Positions 9,211 to 11,144 of a stretch of 21,796 bases of DNA are shown one piece after another (within the stretch, counting starts at the first letter, position 1; each line of letters starts with the position of its first letter). The notes beneath the pieces were generated by a model. That model worked only from the letters and a program-made list of their open reading frames with translations. It searched no databases and was not told where the DNA came from. The DNA is taken from positions 1 through 21,796 of IMG/VR virus record IMGVR_UViG_3300032287_000909. One strand, written 5' to 3'. A program made the translations under genes and the position numbers. The DNA is from a virus.

Positions 9211-9307
9211 ATGAGCAATAGTCTACTTACGATTGACATGATAACAAGAAAAAGTCTCGAAATCCTCGAGAACTCTCTTGTGATCACCCGCACCGTGAAC
9301 CGTCAGT
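9211..9307 (+). CDS. Major coat protein, exon 1
   Basis: AAAGGA lies seven bases before the ATG at 9211. Thirty-two codons follow (MSNSLLTIDMITRKSLEILE and then a segment ending TRTVNRQ) plus the first base of codon 33. This is the usual N terminus of P22-like coat proteins, which run on as ..NRxYDDSFA... Here the frame is cut at that point: the next two bases (AA) complete a TAA stop in unspliced RNA, while the rest of the protein resumes at 10045. Joining T9307 to A10045 gives codon TAT (Tyr33) and restores the expected Q-Y-D-D-S-F-A-V-E. The exon's last seven bases form the P1 helix with the intron guide sequence. Confidence 0.9.
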
Positions 9308-10044
9308 AAACGAAAGTCTAGCTGACGTTAAACCCCGCTAATTGCTGGAAACCCCTTAGCGCCATAGCACCACAGCGTAGTTAGAAATGACAAGCGCGAC
9401 GGTTTGAAAAGTCTGTGGATTGGGCAATCAGCAGCCGAGCATCTTATCGTTAATTGCGGTATGATGAAGGTTCAACGACTAGAGCGCAAGCTCGTAGGGC
9501 CAAGCGGCCCGAAATGCGGGGCAGACATGAAACGTGACTTGAGACAGCGTTTTTTCGCAAAGGTGGTCGAAAAAGAGAACGGATGTCATGAATGGATGGG
9601 TTGTTTAATGCCTAACGGCTACGGACAGTTCCATAAGAACGGAAAAACCGCTTACGCTCACCGCGTAGCATACGAGTTAGCTAACGGTGACTTAAGCGGG
9701 GCGTATGTTCTCCATTCTTGCGACAACCGAAAGTGTGTAAACCCAGCGCATTTGTTTGCTGGTGATTTTGACGCCAACATGCAGGACATGGTGGCAAAAG
9801 GTCGCCAAGCACACGGAACGCGGAACGGACATGCTAAACTCTCAGAAGACCAAGTACGTGAGATACGCGCTTTCTTAGGCACAAACCGCGAAATTGCGGC
9901 GCAGTACGGTGTTACACCTTCTTTGGTGTCAATGATACGTACTGGTCGAATTTGGCGAAATGTCTGAAGATATAGTCTGATCTGCCGTGAAAGCGGCAGC
10001 CGCGCAAGCGGGGGCGGGTGTAGCGGCCAGTCCTGAACGTGGTG
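9308..10044 (+). ncRNA. Group I self-splicing intron in the coat gene
   Basis: The 737-nt intron removes itself from coat mRNA. The exon end CGTCAGT (9301-9307) pairs with GCTGACG (9321-9327) to form a 7-bp P1 with the canonical U-G pair at the 5' splice site, and the intron ends in G (10044). Core motifs match phage group I introns such as T4 td: a Q-like AATTGCTGGAAA (9340-9351), GGCAATCAGCAGCCGAGC (9423-9440), an R-like TTCAACGACTA (9471-9481) and an S-like AAGATATAGTC (9967-9977). GACTA and TAGTC in the last two form P7. Two stacked hairpins follow, with a GAAA loop (9982-9999) and a GCAA loop (10000-10011). An HNH ORF fills the loop between R and S (P8 region). A short P10 (GAC 10047-10049 with GTC 9316-9318) is possible but weak. 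The subgroup was not determined. Confidence 0.93.
9527..9967 (+). CDS. Intron-encoded HNH homing endonuclease
   Basis: The 146-residue protein would cut intronless coat genes and so spread the intron. Residues 20-80 hold an HNH fold of the HNH_3 type: CHEWMGCLMPNGYGQF, then AHRVAYELA, then VLHSCDNRKCVNPAHLFAGD with the H63/N72/H75 triad and Cys65/Cys70 as likely structural zinc ligands. The C-terminal part (about 104-146, AKLSEDQVREIRAFL to the end) looks like a helix-turn-helix that reads DNA, ending VTPSLVSMIRTGRIWRNV. The ATG at 9527 follows a GGGG run; an in-frame upstream start at 9404 would be translated through conserved intron core and is rejected. The stop codon TGA (9965-9967) touches the conserved S motif. 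All key residues look intact, suggesting an active element. Confidence 0.9.
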   Translation: MKRDLRQRFFAKVVEKENGCHEWMGCLMPNGYGQFHKNGKTAYAHRVAYELANGDLSGAYVLHSCDNRKCVNPAHLFAGDFDANMQDMVAKGRQAHGTRNGHAKLSEDQVREIRAFLGTNREIAAQYGVTPSLVSMIRTGRIWRNV

Positions 10045-11144
10045 ATGACGATTCGTTCGCGGTCGAAGGCGCCAAGATTGGCTCCACTCTCCGCATCCGT
10101 CTGCCCGACCGCGCGCTGGTCACGGACGGCGCGGCGCTTCAAGTGCAGGACGACAACGAGCAGTACACCACGCTCGCCGTCTCCAGCCAGAAGCACATCG
10201 GCGTCAACTTCACGACCGCCGAGCTCACCATGCAGCTCGACGATTTCGCCGAGCGCGTGCTCAAGCCGCGTATTTCGCAGCTCGCCGCGTCCATCGACGC
10301 CGACGTCGCCAACTCGTTCCGGTTCATCGGCAACTCGGTCGGCACGCCGGGCACAACGCCGGCAACTTCACTGGTCCTTCTCCAGGCCCAGCAGAAGCTG
10401 AACGAGAACGCGGCCGTGATGTCGCCCCGCTACGCCACCGTCAACCCGGCCGCCAACGCCGCGCTGATCGAAGGCATGAAGGGCCTCTTCAATCCGGTCT
10501 CGGCAGTCTCCAAGCAGTTCAAGAACGGCATGTTCGGCGAAGGCATTCTCGGCTACGACGAGATCAGCATGTCGCAGTCGATTAAGCAGTTCACTACGGG
10601 CTCCCGCACGGGCACCCTGACAATGAACGCTTCGGTCACGACTGAAGGCGCAACCAGCCTTGTGATCACGGGCCTCGGCTCCACGGTCATCAAGGCCGGC
10701 GACGTCTTCACAGTGGCGGACTGCTACGCAGTCAACCCGCAGACCCGTGAAAGCACGGGCTCGCTCTTCCAGTTCGTCGCGCTGGCCGACGTCACGGCGT
10801 CCACGACCGCTACGGTCACGGTCGCCGCGATGTATTCCGCTTCGCACGCGCTGGCCACGGTCGATGCTCTGCCGCAGTCCGGCAAGACGGTGACCTTCCT
10901 TGGGTCGCCCTCGACGCAGTACCCGCAGAACTTGATCTACCACAAGGACGCCATCGCGTTCGCCACCGCCGACCTGCTCATGCCGCAGGGCGTCGATATG
11001 GCCTCGCGCCAGGTTCACAACGGCATCTCGCTGCGCATTGTCCGCCAGTACGACATCAACAACGACCGTCTCCCGTGTCGTATTGATGTTCTCTACGGCT
11101 ACAGCGTCATCCGTCCGCAGATGGCCGTGCGCCTCTGGGGCTAA
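10045..11144 (+). CDS. Major coat protein, exon 2 (main body)
   Basis: Exon 2 completes a 398-residue coat protein (spliced CDS 9211-9307 joined to 10045-11144), close to P22 gp5 (430 aa). It builds the icosahedral shell. The segment after the junction, DDSFAVEGAKIGSTLRIR, then GAALQVQDDNEQYTTLAVSS, VNFTTAELTMQLDDFAERVL and KPRISQLAASIDAD, is typical of the P22-like HK97-fold coat family. A Thr/Val-rich domain in the middle (TLTMNASVTTEGATSLVITG) may correspond to an inserted beta domain. The C terminus is DVLYGYSVIRPQMAVRLWG. An in-frame GTG at 9987, inside the intron's P9 hairpin, would give a spurious 385-residue protein and should not be used as the start. A hairpin with a short T tail follows nine bases after the stop. 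Confidence 0.93.

Follow-up and report, generated by a model that had tools for sequence, protein, structure and literature searches.

The window analysed here is a stretch of 21,796 nucleotides that comprises positions 1 to 21,796 of the IMG/VR virus record IMGVR_UViG_3300032287_000909. It encodes a P22-type gene neighbourhood, in which a portal protein (Pfam P22_portal, E=2.4e-172), a P22-like coat protein, a scaffold, Hc3 and a DNA ejection protein were detected, in agreement with the original prediction of a P22-like podovirus. The coat gene of this virus is split within codon 33 by an intron of 737 nt (9308-10044; Table 1). Its reading frame opens at ATG 9211, upstream of which GAAAGGACAGG resembles a ribosome site, and continues for 32 codons until it meets a TAA at 9307-9309. 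This border stop codon is composed of the final base of exon 1 (T 9307) and the first two bases of the intron. The frame reopens at 10045 and ends at 11144. A coat frame broken after 32 codons and resuming 737 nt further on is what the original prediction had described, and its coordinates are exact.

In silico excision of 9308-10044 yields a single coat frame of 398 aa that contains ITRTVNRQYDDSFAVEGAK and reads TVNRQ-Y-DDSFAVE across the spliced junction. Intronless relatives align without interruption over residues 1-398, with up to 94% identity among the IMG/VR matches listed, and the phage records MW202483 (90.5%) and OR003940 (76%) do the same. This alignment had been suggested at the outset as a check on the proposed junction at Tyr33, which was expected to restore the family motif NRQ-YDDSFAVE. 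Because the intronless relatives align from end to end, and the 398-aa frame agrees with them, the junction is correct.

Base composition offered one further candidate signal. The GC content of exon 1 (9211-9307) is 43%, compared with 57-68% in the remaining coat gene, and this dip was considered as a scar of co-conversion. The candidate was rejected, since intronless relatives share the dip (45% vs 59%), which makes it a property of the 5' end of the gene and not of the intron.

Table 1. Coordinates of the coat exons, the intron, its helices and its reading frame in the window, and carriers of the codon-18 intron. Pairing percentages refer to cells of the alignment of 33 intron cores.
Feature	Position	Strand	Support
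Coat exon 1 (codons 1-32 and first base of codon 33)	9211..9307	+	Spliced frame fits intronless relatives
P1 exon strand CGUCAGU, U-G at splice site	9301..9307	+	Covariation across exon/intron border
Group I intron, 737 nt, terminal G	9308..10044	+	RF00028 match; boundaries same in 38 other distinct loci; covariation
Candidate P10 strand GUC, could pair with exon 2 GAC (10047-10049)	9316..9318	+	Paired 98%
P1 intron strand (internal guide) GCUGACG	9321..9327	+	7-bp pairing, covariation, fold
P3, 5' strand	9333..9338	+	Paired 100%; double changes in two pairs
P4, 5' strand (3' strand 9428-9433)	9343..9348	+	Invariant
P7, 5' strand	9477..9481	+	Paired 100%
P7.1 hairpin, GCAA loop	9482..9493	+	Paired 86% vs 58% shuffled
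P7.2 hairpin	9497..9510	+	Paired 87% vs 62% shuffled
P3, 3' strand	9516..9521	+	Covariation alignment
P8, 5' strand, overlapping HNH start codon	9523..9528	+	Paired 89% vs 68% shuffled; double changes in 6/6 pairs
ORF of putative HNH homing endonuclease, 146 aa, intact, in P8 loop	9527..9967	+	Pfam HNH_3 (PF13392), E=2.3e-8
P8, 3' strand, overlapping HNH stop codon	9960..9965	+	Covariation alignment
P7, 3' strand	9973..9977	+	Covariation alignment
P9.1 hairpin, GAAA loop	9982..9999	+	Paired 100% vs 68% shuffled; double changes in 6/7 pairs
P9.2 hairpin top, GCAA loop	10000..10011	+	Paired 91% vs 90% shuffled
Coat exon 2 (remainder of codon 33 through stop)	10045..11144	+	Pfam P22_CoatProtein (PF11651), E=2.2e-31
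Codon-18 intron carriers	L243 1687-2454; L294; other coat-bearing loci of L404-L457		

Fold and covariation of the intron

The Rfam model Intron_gpI (RF00028), with a cut-off of 50 bits, matches positions 9270-9999 with 73.2 bits (E=3.7e-17) and is the sole Rfam match within the window. Folding of the 5' half of the intron gives z=-2.93 against shuffles, and the minimum-energy fold contains P1, P3, P4, P5, P6, P6a, P7.1 and P7.2. For covariation, 33 distinct intron cores of the family were aligned without their ORFs, and the helices were named by hand. Covariation is seen in P1, P3, P6a, P7, P7.1, P7.2, P8 and P9.1. Within this alignment P1 is paired in 97% of cells and its U-G is invariant, and one intron (locus L179) shows a change in the exon strand of P1 that is matched by the guide, from G-C to C-G. 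The same intron has three of the five pairs of P7, the pseudoknot helix, altered on both sides. P10 is almost invariant among the 33 cores and thus has no covariation support, P9.2 is present as a hairpin but likewise without covariation support, and the hand-chosen registers of P5 and P9.2b fit poorly. No P2 helix was identified in the intron.

These results recover the structural elements on which the original prediction was built, namely a 7-bp P1 with a U-G pair (9301-9307 with 9321-9327), a terminal G (G10044), Q, R and S core sequences (P3, P4, P6 and P7) and two GNRA-capped P9 hairpins (GAAA and GCAA loops), and the covariance-model match accords with its group I assignment. Judged by sequence and covariation, 9308-10044 is a group I intron, and it would be expected to splice itself out of the coat transcript. 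Hairpins P7.1 and P7.2 between P7 and P3 define subgroup IA, and the presence of both suggests that the intron belongs to this subgroup.

An HNH gene in the P8 loop

The intron contains an HNH reading frame (9527-9967) that was absent from the first account of this locus. The gene fills the loop of P8, with its start codon on the 5' strand of the helix and its stop codon on the 3' strand, a placement which suggests that the folded ribozyme hides the start codon. Given an HNH gene in P8, the intron is probably a mobile element. In addition to HNH_3, the product has a weak match, short of the model's cut-off, to zf-His_Me_endon (E=2e-4), the loop that binds zinc in His-Me homing endonucleases, and residues H45, H63, C65, C70, N72 and H75 are invariant across 13 members of the family. 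The median dN/dS of the HNH gene is 0.21 over 122 pairs, near the 0.18 of the coat gene, and by this measure purifying selection acts on the family. Sequence comparison detected no relative with a solved structure. Cellular genomes hold 21 relatives with 34-47% identity, none of which adjoins a P22-like coat gene. At four loci (L099, L100, L115 and L117), another HNH gene about 40% identical to that of the intron lies roughly 200 bases past the coat stop codon.

Distribution of the codon-33 intron

An HNH query of IMG/VR returned 80 loci, 42 of which (L083-L123 and L126) have the HNH gene just upstream of a P22-like coat exon 2. A junction pattern made of five exon bases and the intron core retrieved 58 viral contigs from many samples, all of them (58/58) with the junction in P22-like coat genes. 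Coat sequence lies beside the junction in 56 of the 58 stretches; the remainder, L169 and L210, belong to the same contigs as L122 and L106, at which coat sequence is seen. An earlier junction pattern had produced three matches, with a coat gene detectable in none. The detailed comparison used 39 distinct and nearly complete loci, the window included. In every one of these the insertion follows the first base of codon 33 (phase 1), T and AA form the border TAA, and the intron ends in G, a base that the site finder required. The coat proteins that bear the intron range from 97% down to about 35% identity to that of the window.

This recurrence bears on two other accounts of the broken frame. 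The first takes the insertion for an assembly error or a chimera, to which the window, as a single virus record, would be open; its probability is negligible, because the junction is common to 58 further contigs from many samples that show independent sequence divergence and compensatory changes, and such independent contigs exclude misassembly. According to the second, which is very improbable, nothing is spliced and an N-terminally shortened coat protein is made from exon 2 through an internal start. The window itself would permit this, as no in-frame stop separates GTG 9987 from exon 2, but 18 of the 39 distinct loci lack any ATG, GTG or TTG in the interval from the nearest upstream in-frame stop to exon 2, and a separate start for exon 2 is thereby excluded in much of the family. 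Retention of exon 1 as the coat N-terminus across loci and the covarying group I structure also speak against it.

The alleles at codon 33 differ in content. Most of the introns have an HNH gene of the window type in P8. Those at L171 (320 nt) and L192 (347 nt) are without HNH, and both score above the Rfam cut-off. The intron of L207 (IMGVR_UViG_3300012964_000248) occupies the same site and keeps the 5' half of the ribozyme, but its P6 region houses an HNH-like ORF unrelated to the HNH gene of the window and similar to the ORF of the codon-18 intron described below; ribozyme and endonuclease can therefore be recombined. This intron falls below Rfam significance, and the probable cause is that its ORF divides the core model in two. 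Within the clade of L220, for which the listing was complete, 4 of 79 loci have the intron, the query's own included. The intron was found in no cultured phage and no cellular genome among those searched.

Evidence on mobility and the proposed cycle

Comparison of alleles indicates that the intron is probably mobile by homing through its putative endonuclease. One clear pair, L198 and L214, shows the traces expected of transfer between diverged alleles. Their introns are identical (738/738), as are the first 150 bases of exon 2, and the later 75-base bins of exon 2 are 71-100% identical. On the other side of the intron, identity is 80% over the final 75 bases of exon 1 and 41% over the 61 bases that precede them. 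Synonymous divergence between the two is 0.26 in the coat gene and 0 in the HNH gene. Such a pattern would be left by homing in which the conversion tract was short and confined to one side. Across the family, intron-bearing alleles are more alike than distance predicts both at third codon positions in the roughly 70 bases that precede the site (p ~0.0005) and in the exon downstream (p ~0.0035); these p values come from label permutation that ignores relatedness and are suggestive statistics. Moreover, the same sample ids, such as 3300011114, yield both intron-plus and intron-minus contigs.

Inheritance is also partly vertical, because presence and absence of the intron cluster on the coat tree: on a tree built from exon 2 far from the site, at least 5 changes of state are required, compared with 23 in shuffles. 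The dS of the HNH gene is below that of the coat gene in 152 of 402 pairs, so recent transfer is a minority pattern. Such clustering would be expected if the intron still splices but no longer moves, with an inactive HNH protein in the window virus and purely vertical inheritance. The ORF-less copies at L171 and L192 lend this reading some support, as does the window's intron, whose closest counterpart among those compared (L193) is 82% identical and which has no near-identical partner there. We nevertheless consider loss of mobility unlikely, as the HNH frame of the window is intact, selection on the family is purifying, and other family members include near-identical introns whose host coat genes have diverged.

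Taken as a whole, the evidence makes it very likely that this P22-like podovirus carries a mobile group I intron in its coat gene, one that would be spliced to give an intact mRNA and would home by means of its HNH protein. In the late transcript, P1 would pair the end of exon 1 with the guide sequence of the intron, guanosine would attack after U9307, and exon 1 would be joined to exon 2 after G10044 to give intact coat mRNA. The border stop codon may serve to halt ribosomes on unspliced mRNA before they can enter the ribozyme core and unfold it. The HNH protein would be translated from the unspliced RNA. Where a relative without the intron infects the same cell, the protein would cut or nick its coat allele near codon 33, and the intron and some flanking exon would then be copied into that allele during repair.

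Further insertions in the same coat gene family

A second group I intron is inserted after the second base of codon 18 (..GAGAT/TAACTAA..), 44 bases upstream of the codon-33 site. Of the 54 stretches that a pattern for this junction retrieved, 52 lie in P22-like coat genes. The two introns are alike in being group I, in residing in the same gene family and in having a P1 that ends in U-G. In contrast, the codon-18 intron has another site and another guide sequence, and it contains either no ORF or an HNH-like ORF of the L207 type, which is unrelated to the HNH gene of the window and lies in the P6 region rather than in P8. This ORF is called HNH-like by motif and similarity, its Pfam match being not significant. 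Four copies without an ORF (L407, L417, L418 and L430) reach 64-75 bits with Rfam, above the cut-off. No contig with both introns was seen, a weak indication given that both are rare.

A third insertion, of about 250 nt, splits the P22-like coat gene of MW202674.1 (L082, about 1762-2021) near codon 87; it has no Rfam match, yet looks group I-like.

As a tentative possibility, the 5' end of the coat gene may be a homing hotspot in uncultured podoviruses, where at least two group I lineages (codons 18 and 33) would compete for a stretch of 44 bp, swap (L207) or lose their endonucleases, and spread among viruses. Since few late genes are expressed as heavily as the coat gene, the yield of virions would be set by how efficiently the intron is spliced, and it might be kept partly as a control on coat output.

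Relation to known phage introns

Introns of the SPO1/HMU and Bastille type lie in DNA polymerase genes and have an HNH gene in a peripheral loop. The intron of the window resembles them in this placement of an HNH gene within a group I ribozyme, and differs from them in its host gene. HNH-encoding group I introns of phages are also named in titles cited in PMC10580990. Passages of PMC12363816 describe group I introns that interrupt essential genes of Jug phages, with splicing supported by metatranscriptomes. The likeness to the window is again an essential phage gene with a group I intron; the Jug phages are huge gut phages, and the host genes named in those passages are terL, nrdD and DNA polymerase genes, with no P22-like coat gene.

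The nearest precedent lies in a capsid gene. Mycobacteriophage LittleE has an intron, most likely of group I, in its major capsid gene, for which RT-PCR and the N-terminal sequence of the protein gave proof of splicing (Pope et al. 2013, PMC3706429). Like the intron described here, it has an endonuclease gene, a U at the exon end and a G at the intron end. However, LittleE is a siphovirus with a T=13 capsid and another capsid gene, and its endonuclease is LAGLIDADG-like and encoded on the opposite strand, whereas that of the window is of the HNH type and on the + strand. Furthermore, the LittleE intron was described from one phage (PMC3706429), whereas the codon-33 intron forms a lineage that occupies one codon in at least 58 contigs. 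A passage of the same paper cites an earlier capsid-gene intron in the lactococcal phage Tuc2009. The original prediction regarded a coat gene as an unusual home for such an intron. It is indeed an uncommon one, but not a new one, as both LittleE (where splicing is proven) and Tuc2009 precede it, and to that extent the claim of novelty is overstated. A full-text literature search of open-licence papers gave no report of an intron in the coat gene of a P22-like phage. The interest of the present case lies in its spread, its range of alleles and the second intron nearby.

A selfish intron can thus persist and spread in a viral gene whose expression is among the highest, and can do so at one exact codon in many viruses. 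Empty, full, ORF-less and ORF-swapped alleles, together with the nearby second intron, provide natural material for studying the cycle of gain, decay and loss of homing introns, and the same set is suited to asking what splicing costs a virus. In such genomes, automated annotation is likely to split the coat gene or to drop its first 33 residues.
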